Below the pieces are notes generated by a model. That model did no database searches, was not told the origin of the DNA, and was given only the letters and a program-made list of their open reading frames with translations. Shown piece by piece: positions 8,176 through 54,218 of a DNA stretch of 64,000 nt (position 1 is its first letter; every line of letters starts with the position of its first letter). The stretch lies in NCBI GenBank assembly GCA_022821275.1, contig JAJEDY010000094.1, positions 1 through 64,000 of the forward strand, written 5' to 3'. Both the position numbers and the translations under genes were made by a program. Source of the DNA: Candidatus Latescibacterota bacterium (GTDB taxonomy: Bacteria > Latescibacterota > UBA2968).

Positions 8176-8560
8176 TGGTGGAGGCGGCGGGAATCGAACC
8201 CGCGTCCGAAAGCAGTTTGATAACGGCATCTACGTGTGTAGTCTATTCACTTGGAATCTCGCATCCCGCGCCCCAACAGACAGGGTCGCTGAGATGCCAG
8301 CTCGATGGTTGGGGCTGTGGCCCACTCTCATCCGGAGGCCCTCGAGCGGAAACCCCCGCACCAGCCTGCTCTCGTCGGCGCTCTGCCCAGACCACGCAGG
8401 CAAGGTCTGAGAGAACGGACTGCGTAACGGTTAGTTAGGCAGCCATTGCGTACGTGTTATCGTCCGCAGTTGCGTTTTTTCCCAATTGTTTTACGAGGTG
8501 ATTGGGTACCTCGACACGCAGCTATTATCTCTCCACCCCCGTCGAAGCCGTGTCGCCCCC
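8176..8560 (-). ncRNA. ssrA: tmRNA (transfer-messenger RNA)
   Basis: Minus strand 5' GGGGGCGACACGGCTTCGACGGGGGTGG; tag ORF GCAACTGCGGACGATAACACGTACGCAATGGCTGCCTAA; 3' GGACGCGGGTTCGATTCCCGCCGCCTCCACCA. The acceptor arms pair. Confidence 0.95.
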
Positions 8561-8610
8561 AGCACGTTCAAAAATATATCTAAGTTAGTCCTTCCAGTCA
8601 AGCGGTCAGC

Positions 8611-9546
8611 CTAATTCTCCTTAAACCACTCAATTGTCTGTCGCAATCCCTGCTCTGGCGTCACCTGAGGTTTCCATCCCAGGAGTTTTTTGGCCAGGGT
8701 GATATCGGGTTGTCGCATTTGGGGATCGTCGCCGATTTGTGCATTGGGCATGAGTGCGATTTCGCTTTTGCTTTCGGTTAGTTCAATAATCTTTTTTGCC
8801 AGATCCAACATTGAGGTTTCACTCGATGGATTGCCTATATTTACGGGCGCGTGATAATCCGTGTGCATCAACCGATATATTCCCTCAATCAGGTCTGAAA
8901 CATAACAAATGCTGCGCGTTTGGCTGCCGTCGCCATATACTTTTAGCGGTTCACCTGCCAGTGCACGATTGACAAAATTGGGAATGGCGCGTCCATCGTT
9001 TTTGCGCATGCGGGGACCATAAGTATTAAAAATCCGCACAATCCGCGTATCGACGCCGCATTCGCGGTGATAGGCCATTGTCATGGCTTCTGCAAAACGC
9101 TTGGCTTCGTCATAGACACCACGCACACCCAGTGTATTGACATTGCCCAAATACGATTCTGGCTGCGGATGCACCAGCGGATCGCCGTAAATCTCGGATG
9201 TTGAGGCCAGAAAAAACTTCGCCTTTTTCGCACGCGCCACACCGAGTGCGTTGTGTGTGCCGTGTGCGCCCACTTTCAGAATGCGAATGGGATAGCGCGA
9301 AAAATCATCGGGGCTGGCCGGGCTGGCAAAGTGCAATACATAATCCAATGGTCCTTTCACATAGATGTATTGCGTCACATCGTGTTTGATAAATGTAAAT
9401 CCATCTCGGCCCAACAGGTGTGCGATATTTTTTGCACGTCCGGTCAGCAGGTTGTCCATGACGATTAGTTCGTGACCCTCATCCAGAAAACGGTCACACA
9501 AATGCGATCCCAAAAATCCCGCACCACCTGTTAGTAATATACGCAT
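8611..9546 (-). CDS. NAD-dependent epimerase, UDP-glucuronate decarboxylase-like
   Basis: [48 protein letters not shown]; extended SDR YDEAKR. Confidence 0.88.
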
Positions 9547-9556
9547 ATGGTTCCTG

Positions 9557-10909
9557 TTACAATTTAAAGACGTGATCTTTTTTTCCAGATACAGCCTGTG
9601 TGGCATTGCGCGTATCGACAATACAGCGCGCGCGTTTTACTATCCATTCGTAGTCCCAATCGCTGTGATGGGTCACTATCACCACACAATGGGACTCAGT
9701 TAAACTTTTTTCGTTTAAAGTAACGCCCTTCAGGTCCAAAGTTTCTGTTTGCAAGTGATCTACAAACGGATCGCAATACGAGACCTTCGCGCCTTTCTCC
9801 TGAAGCATTTCCAAAATATCCAATGCCGGAGACTCGCGAATATCGCGTACATCGGGTTTGTATGTCACGCCCAATATCAGGATGTTTGAGCCTTTCAAAC
9901 ACCGCTCGTGTTCGTTGAGTGCGTCGGTGATTTTTTCGACCACATAGCCCGGCATGCTGCGCGTCACTTCGCTGGCCAATTCGATAAAGCGCGCATTGTA
10001 ATTCAAGGTCTTGAGCTTCCAGGCCAAAAAGTGGGGATCAACCGGGATGCAATGCCCGCCCAACCCAGGGCCGGGATAAAACGGCATAAATCCAAACGGC
10101 TTGGTCGCTGCGGCATCGATTACTTCCCAGACATCTACTCCCAGGCGATCACACATCAGTGCCACTTCATTGACCAGGCCGATATTTACACTGCGAAATG
10201 TATTTTCCAGCAACTTGGTCATTTCAGCGGCCTGGGTCGATGAGACCGATACGACTTCACCGATCAATTGCCGGTAAAAATGCGTGCCTATTTCTGCGCA
10301 AGACGGGGTAATCCCACCCACGACTTTGGGCGTGTTGGTGATGGTGTAAACCCTGTTGCCTGGATCGACGCGCTCTGGAGAAAATACGAGGAAGAAATCT
10401 CGTCCAACCTTCAAGCCACTTTCTTCGAGCAGTGGCAATACTAATTCCTGAGTCGTCCCTGGATACGTCGTGCTCTCTAAAATCACCAGTTGTCCACAGC
10501 GCAGTCGATCTTTGATTGTCTCACAGGCTTGTAGTATAAACGAGACATCCGGATCGCGTGTTTTATTTAAGGGGGTGGGTACGCATACCACCACCACATC
10601 AGTCTCATCGAGTACATCGCATTCTCGCGTGGCTGTCAATTTGCCCACCGCTTTGAGACCCGCCACCTCAAATTCCGATACACCCTGCACATCGGACTTT
10701 CCCGATTCTACCAGATCTACTTTGCGCGCCGATGTATCAATTCCCGTGACGGAAAATCCCACCTTGCCCAATTCCACGGATAGGGTCAATCCCACATATC
10801 CCAATCCCATCACCGCTATCCGCGCTTCGTGCGATGCGATTTTTTTCTCCAGCATCTGTCTGGGATTGGGGATTTCCCGAGGTAATCTTTCCGGTATAGC
10901 CATTATGTT
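9557..10909 (-). CDS. Nucleotide sugar dehydrogenase (UDP-GlcNAc/ManNAc dehydrogenase family)
   Basis: [59 protein letters not shown]. Start site uncertain (ORF opens at 10990). Confidence 0.88.
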
Positions 10910-11826
10910 ATCCGCTCTGGTCCGATCATTTGAATCAATACGGCCTTTTGAATGTGCATGCGATTCTCTGCTTGATCCACAGCAATGCATCGTTCGCTTG
11001 CCATGACTTCGTCTGTTATTTCATATCCCTTGTGTGCAGGCAAGCAGTGCATGACATAGGCGTCGGTTTTTTTTAGCAAATCGCCATTGATCTGATATGG
11101 CGTGAATACTTTGGTGCGGCGCTTCTTTTCTTCTTCAAATTCTGGATTGTTAAAAAATTCCATATCAATCCACGTATCGGTATAAACAAAATCTGCATCG
11201 GCAACAGCGGCTTCCAGATCCAGCGTTTCTTCAAACAACCCGGTTGCACGCGCTGCTTTGACCAGTTCGGGATCTGCCGATGGCTTGTTGATCTCTGGCG
11301 TTACAGCCGTTATGCGTACGCCTGCTTTTGTACACGCGGTGACCAGCGAATTGCACACATTGTTCCAGATGCCCACATAAACGACATGTGTTCCCGTCAA
11401 TTTGCCTCGCACTTCCAGGATCGATAGCAGATCGCCCAGGGCTTGACAGGGGTGATAGCGGTCACAACATCCGTTGATAACAGGGACTTCGGAGCCGAGA
11501 GTCAACCGCAGCAGATCTTCGTGTTTGAGCATGCGCGCCATAATTACATCGGCATATCGCGACAGGACCTGTGCCTCATCGCGCACATCGGCCAGTCCAA
11601 AATTGGTGGTCATCCAGTCCAAAAATACGGCCTGACCTCCCAGTTGATGCATGCCCACTTCAAAAGATACGCGGGTGCGCGTCGATGTTTTCTGAAATAA
11701 CATCGCCAAAGTTTGTCCCTTTAGCAAACCCTCATAGCGCTCGGGATTCTTTTTGATCACCAGACCCATTTCTACTGCTCGCAAAATATCATCTGGCGAC
11801 CATGTCTTCAGCGTCAATAGATCCAT
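10903..11826 (-). CDS. argF: Ornithine carbamoyltransferase
   Basis: FQKTSTRTRVSFEVGMHQLGG; NGCCDRYHPCQALGDLLSI; MHCLPAHKGYEIT. Confidence 0.95.
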   Translation of the reverse strand: MDLLTLKTWSPDDILRAVEMGLVIKKNPERYEGLLKGQTLAMLFQKTSTRTRVSFEVGMHQLGGQAVFLDWMTTNFGLADVRDEAQVLSRYADVIMARMLKHEDLLRLTLGSEVPVINGCCDRYHPCQALGDLLSILEVRGKLTGTHVVYVGIWNNVCNSLVTACTKAGVRITAVTPEINKPSADPELVKAARATGLFEETLDLEAAVADADFVYTDTWIDMEFFNNPEFEEEKKRRTKVFTPYQINGDLLKKTDAYVMHCLPAHKGYEITDEVMASERCIAVDQAENRMHIQKAVLIQMIGPERIT

Positions 11827-46989: not shown

Positions 46990-48045
46990 TCAACGCAGTT
47001 CATCCCATTTGAATTCCAGGCGGATGAGATCCGGGGGTGATTCTCGGCGGTGGAGGGATTTATAGGTTATGACGTTGAAAGATACTTTTCCGGCGCGTGT
47101 TATAAAATAAGGCGTCGCATAGTACCCGTCGGGTACAACCGCGCCTTCGTAGTTGTCCAGTATGGCATAGGAGAGGATTTCGAGTGATTCGGGATCGAAT
47201 TTGAATAGACACAGTTTCATGCCGCGTATCGATTCTATGGCATTTCGACCAATAAAGTAGTAACCACCATCTCGCTCGAAAAGTCGCGGTCTGCCTATCT
47301 GAGCGCGTATGAAGTTGTAGGTCTGTGTCAGGTTCACTTCTCTGATTGTGCGGAACGATCTATCGGTAACATGCATTCGCTGGATGCCGTCCAGACCTCG
47401 TGTGTTGAAGATGTATCCGTCTTCATATCGCAGGAAGGATGTTTCGTTGATGGGTGCGTTGCCAAAGGCTTTTGTGAGGTTAGCTACAAACTGCCAACTT
47501 TTCCCATTGTCATCGGATCGAATCACATCCACATTGGGACTGTTCTTTCGATAATGTCGGTAGGGCGTCAAGAGCATATAGGTCGTTTCGCCTTCTGTTA
47601 GAGATTCAAACGCATAGACATATTCCGTGCCGTTGATGGGGCCGAGTTTTTCGCCGCCTTCAAAGTGCACGCCATTATCCGAAGACCGATATGCGAGTAG
47701 CCCGAATTTGTCTTTTGAATTTGGGAAATGAGGATCTACGTACAGACCAATATCGCCATTGGCAAAGCGGACAAATTCTCCGTTCTGGATCGTAAATCCA
47801 TCCAGGTGTGCGACAATTTTCCGATCTGAAATTGTCCCCGTGGTGGGGTTGTAGCGAAACATCTCCCAGTCGGCGGCTGGTTCTGTGTTGTGCCGGGTGC
47901 CGCGTTTGTAGGCGATCAGGACATTGTGTTCGTCCAGAAACAAGAGGTGTGGGGCTTTCACATAGGGCAGTGTTTTTTGTTCTGCTGCCCGTATCAGGAT
48001 TTCCTGGGTTTTGTAATGAGGTAGAATGGGAGTATGAGGGCTCAT
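46990..48045 (-). CDS. BNR-repeat/sialidase-fold-like protein
   Basis: VIRSDDNGKSWQFVANL and AYRSSDNGVHFEGGEKL Asp-box-like motifs. Confidence 0.65.
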   Translation of the reverse strand: MSPHTPILPHYKTQEILIRAAEQKTLPYVKAPHLLFLDEHNVLIAYKRGTRHNTEPAADWEMFRYNPTTGTISDRKIVAHLDGFTIQNGEFVRFANGDIGLYVDPHFPNSKDKFGLLAYRSSDNGVHFEGGEKLGPINGTEYVYAFESLTEGETTYMLLTPYRHYRKNSPNVDVIRSDDNGKSWQFVANLTKAFGNAPINETSFLRYEDGYIFNTRGLDGIQRMHVTDRSFRTIREVNLTQTYNFIRAQIGRPRLFERDGGYYFIGRNAIESIRGMKLCLFKFDPESLEILSYAILDNYEGAVVPDGYYATPYFITRAGKVSFNVITYKSLHRRESPPDLIRLEFKWDELR

Positions 48046-48276: not shown

Positions 48277-49059
48277 TTAGCAGGTTGTCTCACGTTCAGC
48301 GGTAGCCCGCTCTGATGCGGCGATGGGTTGGTACTGCTTTAGGTCTTGCATTGGACTGAACCCCTTTGGTAGCTGACCGCTAAGGTGGACTAATAGGCGG
48401 TGGCTCAACGGCGCATCGAGATTCACCTGAGCTACAGCGATGTTGATGTCGGTTACCATCCAGGTATTTTCTTGGTATATGCAATCAACGAGGTATTGGG
48501 GCAGCCAGCCAAGCGGGTTATAGTTCTGTGTATAGACCAGGAGGCTGTGCGTAGTAGAAGGATTGTTAAGCTCAAATGCCAGCCGAAGATTGTCCCCAAC
48601 TTCTAATTTTTCGGAAGCTTCAATGCCATGCTGATTGGTGTGCCGAAGTCCGTGCAAAATACACTGCGTCTGAAACCTACCATCGGAGTCAGGTTCAATT
48701 GCTGGAAAAATCTCGAAATTGTCGATCTGGCTATGGCCGCCAGACACGGAAAGTTCGGCAATCTCATCCCAGTTGGCTACATCGATACCAAGTTGACGTA
48801 GATATTCAGGGCGGTCCGTGCGGCTCCGATTCATGACTCGATATCGGAATGTCGAGAATAGCTCGTCAGATAGATAGTGCTTGTACAGTTGCGGAAATCC
48901 GGGGATCTCTCGGAATTTAGCCAATTTCTTAGCTTGCTCGGCTCCCCGAACATAAGCAAACTCGTAGCCACCATGTTCGGTTTCATGCTGAACGAGCCGA
49001 CCAATAGGGAACCACAGGCGGCTTTGTAGGTTTTGCCAGGCGAGATAGAGAGTTGTCAT
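48277..49059 (-). CDS. HIRAN-domain protein with HipA_N-like N-terminal region
   Basis: RLWFPIGRLVQHETEHGGYEFAYVRGAEQAKK...REIPGFPQLYKHYLSDELF (HipA_N-like) and LEVGDNLRLAFELNNPSTTHSLLVYTQNYNPLGWLPQYLV (HIRAN-like). Start overlaps upstream stop (ATGA). Confidence 0.65.
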   Translation of the reverse strand: MTTLYLAWQNLQSRLWFPIGRLVQHETEHGGYEFAYVRGAEQAKKLAKFREIPGFPQLYKHYLSDELFSTFRYRVMNRSRTDRPEYLRQLGIDVANWDEIAELSVSGGHSQIDNFEIFPAIEPDSDGRFQTQCILHGLRHTNQHGIEASEKLEVGDNLRLAFELNNPSTTHSLLVYTQNYNPLGWLPQYLVDCIYQENTWMVTDINIAVAQVNLDAPLSHRLLVHLSGQLPKGFSPMQDLKQYQPIAASERATAERETTC

Positions 49060-52000
49060 CGAATACTCCTCAACAATTCGGTTTTGCTGGTCACGACCAC
49101 TTCGGTAGCAAAATCTTTGGCCGTGTCAGACATAAACTCGGGCGGTACCTTGTCCATAACTGTTCTTATATCATCATCGGATACATTGCTGATTTTGTTC
49201 AATGTCCTTTGAGTGAAATCAGATTTCCACCGACACAATAATTTTGCGAGACGAAGGGGTGAGATGTAATTAAGTTTACTTCTAACAAATACACGCCCTC
49301 TTCCCCTTTGCAAATAGTTGAGCACCCTTCCCGAATCCAAGATATAACGGCGTCTTTCATCGGTCAGTTCTCGACCCAATGAGGAGGCGTGGTCGTATGA
49401 CGGTGCTATTTCCCATTGGTCATAACCAGGACCATAAACCCGCGCAAGCATCCAGTTCTCGTGGTGTCTATCCGTGTTGCCGATGAGACCGTCTAACGCT
49501 GCTAAGGCGTTCATGTAAGCCAGGATCAGATCGCGTGTGCGGTATTTTCCGAATGTTGCCTTGTCTTCCCGTTGGACTATGGGAAATGTGCTCAGGATGT
49601 ACTCGGCGTCTTCCCGCGACAGACCGTAGAGGTGGAAGTAGAGTGCGTCGAGGCGAGCGCGCAGGTGGCGGCGTTCTTCTTCATCCCAGATAAAGGGTGA
49701 GCCGTCGTAGCCGAGGTCGCGGGCGAAGGGTGCCATGTCGTGCGCGGTGTACGTGAGACGGAGCACATGGTCACGGATGATGTCGCGAGCGGTTTTGCTC
49801 CCGAACTGGCGATCGTAGTCGGCAGGTGTGATGACAGGAAGTTGCTCGACGATATACCAAGTGAGGTGGGTTGCTTGGACCTTCTGACGAGCAACGTAAT
49901 CAAAACAGAAACTGTTAAGATTGGATAGCAGACAAGCCGCGTTCTTGCCATTGAAGTCGCCTTCGACCGGAACAAGGACTGGTAATGTGTGTCCACATCC
50001 AACTTGTGGAATGATAGCGGCGATCATGGTGCGAACATTGGTTGGCGCCGTAATGTCTTTAAACGCCAAAAGCCAGTGTAAACTCTGGACAATATTGCTC
50101 TCCTGCTGACTGATCCAATACCGAGGACAAGGAGAGAAAGTCTGATCGCGGTATTCTTCGTCGAGTGTCTTGTCCGGCTGTCCCGATCGGTTCAGATTTT
50201 CAGGGTTGACGACCACGCTTGCCGCACGATGGTCAAATGCCTGTACCATCTTCCCCTCATACAACGGCAAATACAATTCTTCTCCCCGTTTCCAGCGGTT
50301 GCCCTTAACGGGGTAGAAACCTTCGGCTTCGAGTTGATCGGAGGTGCGGAAAAGGTGGGAGTCAGATGTCATATTAAACAATCCCTGCATAAATCGCACC
50401 GGCCAGGCCTTGCATTCTTCACCGCCTGAGCGATCCACCAGCACTGAATGTTGTTCATAGATGCGACGGGTGATCTCAGCGTCGCGGCGACTGCGGAACA
50501 CGGGGGCCGTGCCGGTATTCGGATTTACACGAGCGAAGTCATCTGGTGTCAATGGAAAGCAGCGATCCTCGTCATCTATGGTTTTGGTGTCGTGCAAGAA
50601 GAAGGCACATTCGGTCTGGTCGAACAGTCGCTCCTCGCCACCAAATATAAGGGCGCAGAATTTGAACGAAGCGTGGATATCCTTGAAGAAAATTTTCTTG
50701 TTTTCAAAGTCGAACAGGCTATCTACCCGTCCGCTTGTGGAAACAGATTTGAAGAAGCGGGCCGCGGTTTTGTCGGCGTAGATGCCCGATGGCGTGAGCA
50801 GGCCGACAAAACCATCCGGCTTAATCAGGTTCATTGCATGCTCGACGAACAGCGAGTAAAGATTTATTCGACCTCCGCTCAGAAGAGGATATTTGTTAAA
50901 TGAACGTACGAACATGCGAATCTCAGCAGAGCGTTCCTTCGCCATTTCATACTCTAAGGCGAGTTTGTCGCCTGCCTCTTTTTTTTCTTTAATCAATGCC
51001 TTTCGCTTTGCTCCAGTCGCCGCATGGGATATCTTTTCATCACGGTTTGCGAACCATTCTACCTCTGGCTGTTCAATTTGGTCCCACGGTGGATTGCCAA
51101 TGATCGCGTCAAAACCGCCTTGCGGGCGGATATTTGTCCACTGATGCCAGACCCCTGGGAAAGCTACCTCCCAGTGCAGGAAGCTTTCTTGGTCGGCAAT
51201 AGCTCGTGCCTCGTACCACAGATTGGCGAATTGCGACCAGGTGGTAGTATCGGAATCGGGCGGAGCGTCGCCCAGGTGATTCGGGCCTCGAGACAGCAGC
51301 TTGTACGCGTCCTCTATATACCGCCCGAGCGTCGTGACCAGTGGCCCTTCAAATATGGCGAGTTCTCTCTTCTTCATCCCTGCCGTCAGATAGCGATAGC
51401 CGCAGAGGAAGTCGAGAAGATCGCGGAGGTCTGCGGTTGTGTCCTCTACCCCATGGAATAGCAGAGCTGATTCTTGCACTTCGGCTATGTCAGCATCGGA
51501 TTTCTCTTCAATGAGTTGCATGCTGTCCGTGGCCTTCTCGGCACCTGCAACGGCAGAACCGGCAAAAAGTCCTCCACCTAACTCTCGCAAGTCCCGAAGT
51601 GCATCTGACACGCTGAGTCCGATCAGCGAATCCCCACAGCGCAGGTGGTGGTCAAGGAAAGACAGCGGTGCGCCCACGGTGAAGCTGTGAAGCCACAGCG
51701 ACACCTTGGCGAGTTCTACGGTTAGAGGATTTTTATCGACTCCATATATGCAGCGTTTAAGCACCATACGGCGAATGATGGCCTGATCGGTAAGCTGAGT
51801 CTCATCCAGAACCCAGTCCGATTCTTTAGCTCGTCGAATGATCTCGCTGCGAATCGTCTCTACACGTTTTACGAGCGGTGAAACGTAGTCACCATTGAGC
51901 CAGTCCGGGACTGTGGGGACGTACTCGATTAACTCGGCGATGTAGTCAGATAAGAAATCTACAGCGGTGACCAGGAAGTGTCCACTTCCCATCGCCGGGT

Positions 52001-53501
52001 CCAGTACCTTCAGATTTAGAACTGCTTCGGCCGGATCGAGTTTTTGCAATTCTGCTTTTCGTTCGTCCTTAGGGCGGCGGATGCTCTTGAGTGCGGCGGC
52101 TTTGTCTTCGAAGGCTTTGAGACGCTCTTCTGCCAGTGGCTTCAAGGTGCGATCAACGATCAGATCGACAAGTTCTTGCAAGGTATAGAAACTGCCGCTG
52201 TCCTTGCGGGCATAGGGATTGAGGCGGATGATGATCTCACCATCTTCGCGCACAGGCTCGTGCTCCAGCAGGCGTTCGTAGATGGAGCCGAGTTGCTGCG
52301 CGGACATATCGCGGTAATTGACAAATCGATGTGTTCCATGCGGGTCTTGGACATGGCTCAGGCTATAAATGATGGGTGCGATTTTCGAGTCGGGCAGGCG
52401 CACCTCCTCCAACATTGGAGCGGCTTGAGATGCGAATAGTCCACCGTTGTAGGGCGGTAGGCCAATGGACGGATCACCTTCGTCAATAATTCTGCAAAGA
52501 TTGACGAGGCGGTCGTAGTAGTTGGAAGCTCTGGCGGAGAAAGTGTCTTTTTGCTCTGTCCTGTTTGCGATATCGTCCCGCACTTTTCGCAAGCCGTAGT
52601 CGTCGTAACGCGAGTCGTTGACAGGCAATAGGCCCCTGTCTTCGGCGTAAAGCACAAAGAGCAGCCTGTAGAGGAAGATTAAAGCAGCTTCCCGGATTTG
52701 TGAGAGATTTTCCGTTGTGGCATCCGCAAGTGCTGAGACGAGGTCGGGGAACACAAGTTTGAAGACTATGCTCGAAAGATCCTTCGCAACTTTTTCTTCG
52801 TATTGCTGACCTTCCGTAAGTGCAGTTTCGAGGAAGGTAGTTGTTGCACCCTGCTGAAGCGTGAAGGCATCACGGCGAAACAGCAGGTAAAAAATGCGCA
52901 GTTCGTCTTCGTTGCCGGATTCGATCAGTGCAGCCAGGTCAGCCTCGTAGTAGCCGCTGGCACGGGGACGAGCACGGTAGTCGTAGAGTCGCCAGATTTC
53001 GCCGTTGGTGAGGATACCCCATCTAATTTGGCTCTCCGACTCGATATCGGCCGTTGAGAGGTATCTGAGAATTTGGCCGTGTGGCGAATTAGCCTGGACT
53101 TTGTCGGTTTTGTCACGGGAGTCGAGAGAAAGACCGAACCGCTTGCTTTCTTCAACTACTGTAGCGTACCGGAAACGATCACTGGCGTTGTGTTCCGCCG
53201 CAGCGTGTGCTTTGGATTCGGCATTGGTGAAAAGCAGGTGGTCGGGGATGTCCTCATTGCGGGCTGTCCCTTGCTGTGGCAGATAGTCCGCCCATCCGAG
53301 CAATTCCAGAACAGGGCGGATCATATCCTGCTCGGTGACGGATTCGTTGGGATTTTTGAAGCGGACAAATTTCTCGAATAGGTCAGAAATAGCGGTACTG
53401 AATGTGGTGAATGCCTCTGGCTGGTCAATTGAGGTTTTCCACTCGTCTGTGGCTTTTATGCCGTCAGTTAGAAAGTAATGGGTGAATAATTGTCCAGGCA
53501 T
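49056..53501 (-). CDS. Type IIG-like restriction-methylase (Eco57I-type) with C-terminal HipA-like kinase C-lobe segment
   Basis: 1481 aa; N-terminal PD-(D/E)xK-like IPDHLLF...YATVVEESKRF; motif I VLDPAMGSGHFLVTAV; motif IV IIGNPPWD; after RTRDLILAYMNALAA it continues LDGLIGNTDRHHENWML...WEIAPSYDHASSLGREL (HipA/CtkA-like catalytic loop and metal-binding Asp). Confidence 0.85.
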   Translation of the reverse strand: MPGQLFTHYFLTDGIKATDEWKTSIDQPEAFTTFSTAISDLFEKFVRFKNPNESVTEQDMIRPVLELLGWADYLPQQGTARNEDIPDHLLFTNAESKAHAAAEHNASDRFRYATVVEESKRFGLSLDSRDKTDKVQANSPHGQILRYLSTADIESESQIRWGILTNGEIWRLYDYRARPRASGYYEADLAALIESGNEDELRIFYLLFRRDAFTLQQGATTTFLETALTEGQQYEEKVAKDLSSIVFKLVFPDLVSALADATTENLSQIREAALIFLYRLLFVLYAEDRGLLPVNDSRYDDYGLRKVRDDIANRTEQKDTFSARASNYYDRLVNLCRIIDEGDPSIGLPPYNGGLFASQAAPMLEEVRLPDSKIAPIIYSLSHVQDPHGTHRFVNYRDMSAQQLGSIYERLLEHEPVREDGEIIIRLNPYARKDSGSFYTLQELVDLIVDRTLKPLAEERLKAFEDKAAALKSIRRPKDERKAELQKLDPAEAVLNLKVLDPAMGSGHFLVTAVDFLSDYIAELIEYVPTVPDWLNGDYVSPLVKRVETIRSEIIRRAKESDWVLDETQLTDQAIIRRMVLKRCIYGVDKNPLTVELAKVSLWLHSFTVGAPLSFLDHHLRCGDSLIGLSVSDALRDLRELGGGLFAGSAVAGAEKATDSMQLIEEKSDADIAEVQESALLFHGVEDTTADLRDLLDFLCGYRYLTAGMKKRELAIFEGPLVTTLGRYIEDAYKLLSRGPNHLGDAPPDSDTTTWSQFANLWYEARAIADQESFLHWEVAFPGVWHQWTNIRPQGGFDAIIGNPPWDQIEQPEVEWFANRDEKISHAATGAKRKALIKEKKEAGDKLALEYEMAKERSAEIRMFVRSFNKYPLLSGGRINLYSLFVEHAMNLIKPDGFVGLLTPSGIYADKTAARFFKSVSTSGRVDSLFDFENKKIFFKDIHASFKFCALIFGGEERLFDQTECAFFLHDTKTIDDEDRCFPLTPDDFARVNPNTGTAPVFRSRRDAEITRRIYEQHSVLVDRSGGEECKAWPVRFMQGLFNMTSDSHLFRTSDQLEAEGFYPVKGNRWKRGEELYLPLYEGKMVQAFDHRAASVVVNPENLNRSGQPDKTLDEEYRDQTFSPCPRYWISQQESNIVQSLHWLLAFKDITAPTNVRTMIAAIIPQVGCGHTLPVLVPVEGDFNGKNAACLLSNLNSFCFDYVARQKVQATHLTWYIVEQLPVITPADYDRQFGSKTARDIIRDHVLRLTYTAHDMAPFARDLGYDGSPFIWDEEERRHLRARLDALYFHLYGLSREDAEYILSTFPIVQREDKATFGKYRTRDLILAYMNALAALDGLIGNTDRHHENWMLARVYGPGYDQWEIAPSYDHASSLGRELTDERRRYILDSGRVLNYLQRGRGRVFVRSKLNYISPLRLAKLLCRWKSDFTQRTLNKISNVSDDDIRTVMDKVPPEFMSDTAKDFATEVVVTSKTELLRSIR

Positions 53502-53744: not shown

Positions 53745-54218
53745 TCAAGTCTCGCGTACATAAGTCTCGCTGCGTCCGCCGCTTTTTTTCAGGAGATAGA
53801 TTTCACTGATGACCATGTCGCGATCTACTGCTTTGCACATGTCGTAGATGGTCAATAGAGCGATGCTTACCGCGGTGAGGGCTTCCATTTCAACACCTGT
53901 GCGGTCGGGGACGCGCACTGTTGCACGCGCTGTAATGCTCGTGTTTTCGGTCTCAAAGTTGAGTTCAACGCCTGTAATGCCCAGCGGGTGGCACATTGGG
54001 ATGAGGTCAGAGGTGCGCTTGGCGGCCATGATGCCCGCAATGCGCGCTGTTTCCAGTACATTGCCTTTGGGTATATTTCCCCCGGTGATGAGTTGCAGGG
54101 TTTCGGGTTGCATTTCAATTTTGCCCGATGCGATCGCCTCGCGGTCTGTCACGTCTTTATCTGTGACATCCACCATTTTTACGGATCCCTGTTCGTCAAT
54201 ATGTGTCAATTTTGCCAT
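53745..54218 (-). CDS. moaC: Cyclic pyranopterin monophosphate synthase MoaC
   Basis: LIPMCHPLGITGVELNFE; GVEMEALTAVSIALLTIYDMCKAVDRDMVI. Confidence 0.96.
   Translation of the reverse strand: MAKLTHIDEQGSVKMVDVTDKDVTDREAIASGKIEMQPETLQLITGGNIPKGNVLETARIAGIMAAKRTSDLIPMCHPLGITGVELNFETENTSITARATVRVPDRTGVEMEALTAVSIALLTIYDMCKAVDRDMVISEIYLLKKSGGRSETYVRET

Follow-up and report, generated by a model that had tools for sequence, protein, structure and literature searches.

The window (the whole stretch of DNA that was analysed, positions 1 to 64,000 of contig JAJEDY010000094.1 from the Candidatus Latescibacterota bacterium assembly GCA_022821275.1) contains a two-gene cassette on its minus strand, flanked by a BNR-repeat gene (46990-48045) on one side and by moaC (53745-54218) on the other. 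The downstream gene of the cassette (48277..49059) is an open reading frame encoding a 260-aa HipN-like protein, which is matched over residues 1-246 by the PADLOC profile PDC-M03B (PDLC04347; E 4.1e-69) and thus belongs to this family over its full length. The upstream gene is a 1481-codon open reading frame (49056-53501) in which a type IIG restriction-modification (RM) enzyme is joined to the C-terminal part of a HipI kinase. The start of hipN (ATG, 49059-49057) and the TGA that ends the upstream frame share bases as ATGA (49056..49059), and a GAGGAG ribosome-binding site (49066..49071), contained within the end of the chimera, is located 6 nt ahead of this ATG. The preliminary description correctly reported a start codon overlapping the upstream stop, but it extended the gene to 49062, 3 nt beyond its actual end at 49059. 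The same ATGA overlap is present in most of the intact hipI-hipN pairs checked; since this coupling is normal in hipIN, it indicates nothing special about the fusion to the RM enzyme.

The 260-aa protein was modelled with AF2 from 16 sequences (mean pLDDT 71), and comparison of the model with solved structures using VIA-align revealed two domains, in agreement with the earlier proposal of a HipA N-subdomain at the N-terminus and a HIRAN domain at the C-terminus. The first (residues 1-121; 48697..49059) is a HipS-like domain equivalent to HipA N-subdomain 1, with residues 2-121 matching HipA (2wiu, Z 10.9) and residues 1-120 matching Legionella HipS (8ezr, Z 10.7). The second (residues 124-243; 48331..48690) matches the HIRAN structures 3k2y, 4xzg, 5bnh and 4s0n with Z-scores of 10-12 (e.g., 11.9 for 3k2y and 10.3 for HLTF, 5bnh/4xzg), and Foldseek likewise ranked the HLTF HIRAN domain and lp_0118 at the top. 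The connection to these solved structures depends on the structure model: a profile built from 16 HipN relatives recovered no HipS or HIRAN chains from the PDB at the sequence level, and the Pfam HIRAN model gave a sub-threshold match to the window protein (E 0.011). Judged by modelled domain order and family, the protein is a HipN. It is a divergent one, sharing about 36-41% identity with the copies found, and no relative above 41% was detected in two genome_contigs scans, in 64 genomes of its own phylum or in 396 genomes of another phylum (the last search, empty at a strict cut-off, carries little weight).

The upstream gene bears out the claim that a kinase fragment is fused to a restriction enzyme. 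Residues 1-1335 (49497..53501) form a type IIG RM enzyme, matched by DrmMI and REase_MTase_IIG models and by the Eco57I Pfam model (E 3e-22), that is missing only its last nine residues. A PD-ExK nuclease motif (PD at residue 86 and EESK at 117; 53142..53246) and the N6-adenine methyltransferase motifs I (LDPAMGSG at residue 500; 51981..52004) and IV (NPPW at residue 803; 51084..51095) occur on the same chain, as expected of type IIG enzymes, and 556 of the 580 residues that are invariant in seven homologues are retained. With all of its motifs in place, the enzyme probably works with the 146-residue tail attached. That tail (residues 1336-1481; 49056..49496) corresponds to positions of about 155-300 of the 305 in the PADLOC model PDC-M03A (E 6e-32) and, as alignment with 10 full kinases demonstrates, lacks the N-lobe, a segment of about 150 residues in full kinases that carries the P-loop and the ATP lysines. 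No complete HipI core kinase therefore lies directly upstream of hipN in the window. In the half that remains, 25 of the 26 conserved columns are preserved, including the catalytic Asp and Asn, with an intact catalytic loop (GNTDRHHEN; 49455..49481) and an intact Mg-binding Asp segment (PSYDHASSLG; 49374..49403), and no stop interrupts the frame over its 1481 codons. In the related kinase HipT, alanine substitution of N-lobe residues K64 and K86 abolishes toxicity, as do changes of the C-lobe residues H212, N215 and D233 (PMC9325769). Since the P-loop and the lysines needed for HipT toxicity lie in the lost half, the kinase remnant is, by analogy with HipT, almost certainly inactive. When the fused kinase part was modelled with AF2, the prediction was poor (pLDDT 65, falling to about 43 around the catalytic region) and matched no PDB fold, a result that weighs little in either direction.

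The arrangement most similar to this locus is hipIN, described by Gerdes et al. (2021), in which a HipI kinase gene is followed by hipN, encoding a HipS-like domain and then a HIRAN domain (PMC8262856). hipIN is a predicted toxin-antitoxin pair and defence candidate with HipN as the putative antitoxin; pairs of HIRAN and HipA genes are also found beside diDNase genes in Gram-positive bacteria, for which a predicted role in phage defence has been cited (PMC11706625). The literature searched yielded no experimental test of HipN. The window shares with hipIN and the PADLOC candidate PDC-M03 the domain order of HipN, its place directly downstream of the kinase, the ATGA overlap and membership in family PDC-M03B, and both models of the PDC-M03A/B pair match here (A to the kinase half and B to HipN); it differs in that the kinase is devoid of its N-terminal half and joined in one chain to a type IIG RM enzyme, and in the divergence of hipN noted above. 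As in HipBST, the antitoxin-like part is a HipA N-subdomain 1 split off from the kinase, which upholds the split-HipA logic of the preliminary description. Unlike in HipBST, HipN carries a HIRAN domain, the kinase gene comes first, and the lobe blocked by HipS is missing; furthermore, no HipB (HTH) gene is present beside the window's hipN, which has the BNR-repeat gene on one side and the RM chimera on the other. HipL unites the same three domains (kinase, HipS and HIRAN) in one chain, whereas in the window they are divided between two proteins, with only part of the kinase left. The RM part resembles the stand-alone, MmeI/Eco57I-like type IIG enzymes of Latescibacterota in having all motifs, but its last nine residues have been replaced by 146 residues of HipI.

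In related genomes the two halves of the chimera occur separately. Homologues of the RM enzyme in other genomes of the phylum are full length and 69-77% identical to the window's; they align to window residues 1-1337 and then stop within about seven residues (..NALAAGDTETVVAV and a stop codon, with the general pattern ..NALAAGD(T/A)E... before the stop), so that they end nine residues beyond the join in the chimera. Similarity to the kinase begins near residue 1334-1336, and no kinase or HIRAN gene was detected near the stand-alone RM homologues of the phylum. An apparent extension of RM similarity to residue 1399 in one homologue (genome G046) was rejected, as re-alignment ends at 1337 and that gene has its own stop codon. 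Conversely, hipIN pairs in sister genomes mostly comprise a kinase of ~295 aa, often with the ATGA overlap, and no RM gene. A second, intact hipIN pair (295 aa and 249 aa; L002:600-1487 and 1489-2238) is present on another contig of the source genome itself (G000:C81) and is only about 36% identical to the pair in the window. The RM-HipI chimera was found in the window alone among 64 genomes of the phylum searched. No in-frame RM fusion was seen among HipN loci in GTDB genomes, and in none of 80 GTDB loci was hipIN coupled or fused to a close RM gene; the only RM-like stretches in these 80 were a weak similarity on the opposite strand (L119) and a partial match (L130). The idea that the chimera represents a conserved fusion system was accordingly rejected. 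HipN does co-occur with HipA-like kinases (54 of the 76 loci described below), as the preliminary description expected, and the outcome that it named as its own refutation did not arise. The suggestion of a toxin-antitoxin layer guarding the RM system is not supported, given a single genome, stand-alone RM homologues, and a kinase deprived of its P-loop, lysines and Gly-rich loop.

These observations are well explained if the locus derives from a hipIN toxin-antitoxin pair that has been broken, in which the RM enzyme and HipI were probably fused by a lineage-specific deletion that killed the kinase. The ancestor would have carried a type IIG RM gene, then hipI, then hipN on one strand, a tandem that was not found in the genomes searched. 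The deletion would have taken the final nine RM codons, anything in between and roughly the first 150 codons of hipI, joining RM codon 1335 in frame to hipI codon ~150 and leaving hipN with its ribosome-binding site and ATGA overlap. With the hipI frame uninterrupted up to its own stop, such an in-frame join requires only about a one-in-three chance. HipN, which would formerly have neutralized the kinase, is most likely now an antitoxin with no kinase beside it. The retention of 25 of 26 kinase columns together with an open frame implies that either the fusion is young or the tail is still constrained, and these features count against reading the join as a deletion scar. Support for a deletion comes from a sister species (G038:C1; L027:8626-9390 and 9387-10133), where a Fic-family gene is spliced onto the last codons of hipI and overlaps an intact hipN by ATGA. 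The Fic protein ends in QLQEIFR, resembling the HipI end QLQELFQ, while Fic relatives have other C-termini and in several genomes share a contig with an intact hipIN; this splice would be a parallel deletion and thus favours the same origin for the RM-HipI join. The RM-kinase chimera itself is of interest mainly as a warning: however striking a fusion looks, and even where its translational coupling is perfect, it can be no more than the scar of a deletion.

The fate of hipN after loss of its kinase was surveyed in 76 loci from GTDB genomes with usable upstream sequence. An intact HipI is encoded directly upstream in 54 of these loci; in the other 22 the kinase is broken, truncated or absent and hipN is usually open; in several cases hipI is reduced to its final 20-50 codons ahead of hipN. 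Such numbers raise the tentative alternative that HipN has a job of its own after kinase loss (e.g., cross-neutralization of incoming HipI as an anti-addiction function, or binding of DNA ends), which would account for its being intact in the window and at other loci that lack the kinase. The clearest evidence comes from two loci (L102:5906-6735 and L136:4282-5180) that descend from one ancestral loss of hipI, with an identical junction running from the stop of a TPR-like gene to a short hipI stub, flanks that align on both sides, and an intact hipN. Between these two hipN genes there are 52 synonymous and 34 nonsynonymous changes (dS 0.39, dN 0.063, dN/dS 0.16, P 1.6e-15), and dN/dS is 0.20 for the HipS-like domain and 0.13 for the HIRAN domain, demonstrating that hipN can be under selection with no hipI beside it. 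The presence of a second, intact hipIN in the source genome and the failure to find a full HipI elsewhere in 15 kinase-less genomes also fit a separate role, although these are metagenome-assembled genomes rather than complete ones, in which a kinase elsewhere could be missed. Moreover, there is a single clean pair with a shared loss, and constraint on hipN is weaker at a further locus, L148 (dN/dS 0.40). In the broader form of this alternative, which is likewise conceivable without being the expected outcome, HipN has its own selected role in anti-addiction against HipI kinases or in HIRAN sensing of DNA ends, persists time and again after loss of its kinase, and within this genus may have been recoupled, in frame or by ATGA, to the RM-HipI chimera, the Fic enzyme and a PDC-M68 ATPase. 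While the arrangement of HipN and hipIN was already known, the persistence of hipN and selection upon it after kinase loss are new. About three in ten of the sampled hipN genes have no working kinase, and in at least one lineage purifying selection maintains hipN in its absence. Should this be confirmed, the role of HipN would go beyond that of a passive antitoxin, and surveys that started from the kinase, the 2021 one among them, would have overlooked the kinase-less loci.

Several additional features were observed among the hipN loci. The cyanobacterial (Kamptonema) locus L148:5900-6750, compared with its near relative L161, has the appearance of a clean hipI deletion of about 950 bp. In another genome (G032:C2; L031:7683-8435, 8432-10192 and 10413-11186), hipN overlaps a complete PDC-M68B (DUF2326) ATPase gene by ATGA, with HipI absent upstream and the PDC-M68B gene preceded by a PDC-M68A gene with an HNH-like domain. 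About 30-50 nt before hipN, at the 3' end of hipI, conserved Tyr-Asn codons take the form TATAAT in 19 of 39 cases, compared with about 9.5 expected from codon use; this may possibly constitute an internal hipN promoter, a reading of sequences that are related to one another and one that does not extend to the window, which lacks the hexamer.

A different interpretation of the chimera itself is that it operates as a working device, with the C-terminal half of HipI acting as a docking tail through which HipN, using its HIRAN domain as a sensor of DNA ends, holds or releases the RM enzyme and so regulates restriction. The open fused frame, the conserved kinase positions and a hipN that is intact and coupled are all compatible with this scenario, as is the fact that HIRAN domains have been described as binders of DNA ends (PMC8262856), which an RM enzyme makes. 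Nevertheless, the scenario appears unlikely. HipS inhibits its kinase through contacts next to the Gly-rich loop, where Trp65 is wedged (PMC10627512), and since this loop lies in the lost half of HipI, the surface blocked by a HipS-type domain is absent from the proposed tail. In addition, the tail has a poor fold prediction, and the fusion is restricted to one genome while relatives of the RM enzyme do without it.

The site occupied by the cassette was also compared among relatives. In most comparable sister species the flanking genes (or the neighbouring sat gene) lie near each other and the cassette is absent, and in one sister species (G034) the same site contains a decayed RM gene with 84-92% DNA identity to that of the window and a natural end, GDTESVVAV followed by a stop. 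This comparison favours the deletion account, in its simplest form with hipIN once located downstream of this RM gene. Misassembly of two loci within a metagenome-assembled genome, which would fit a fusion seen in one assembled genome only, is highly improbable: the chimera sits well away from the ends of a contig of 64 kb or more, between flanks that are both conserved, the sister species carries an RM remnant at the same site, no repeat at the join could account for a false link, and hipI and hipN of the window share about 36-41% identity with any other copy, which means that no known copy was mis-joined. Remnants of the 3' end of the RM gene are scattered elsewhere in the phylum (L190:1152-2814 in G034:C12, L038, L083 and L084), two of them within one island of G034.
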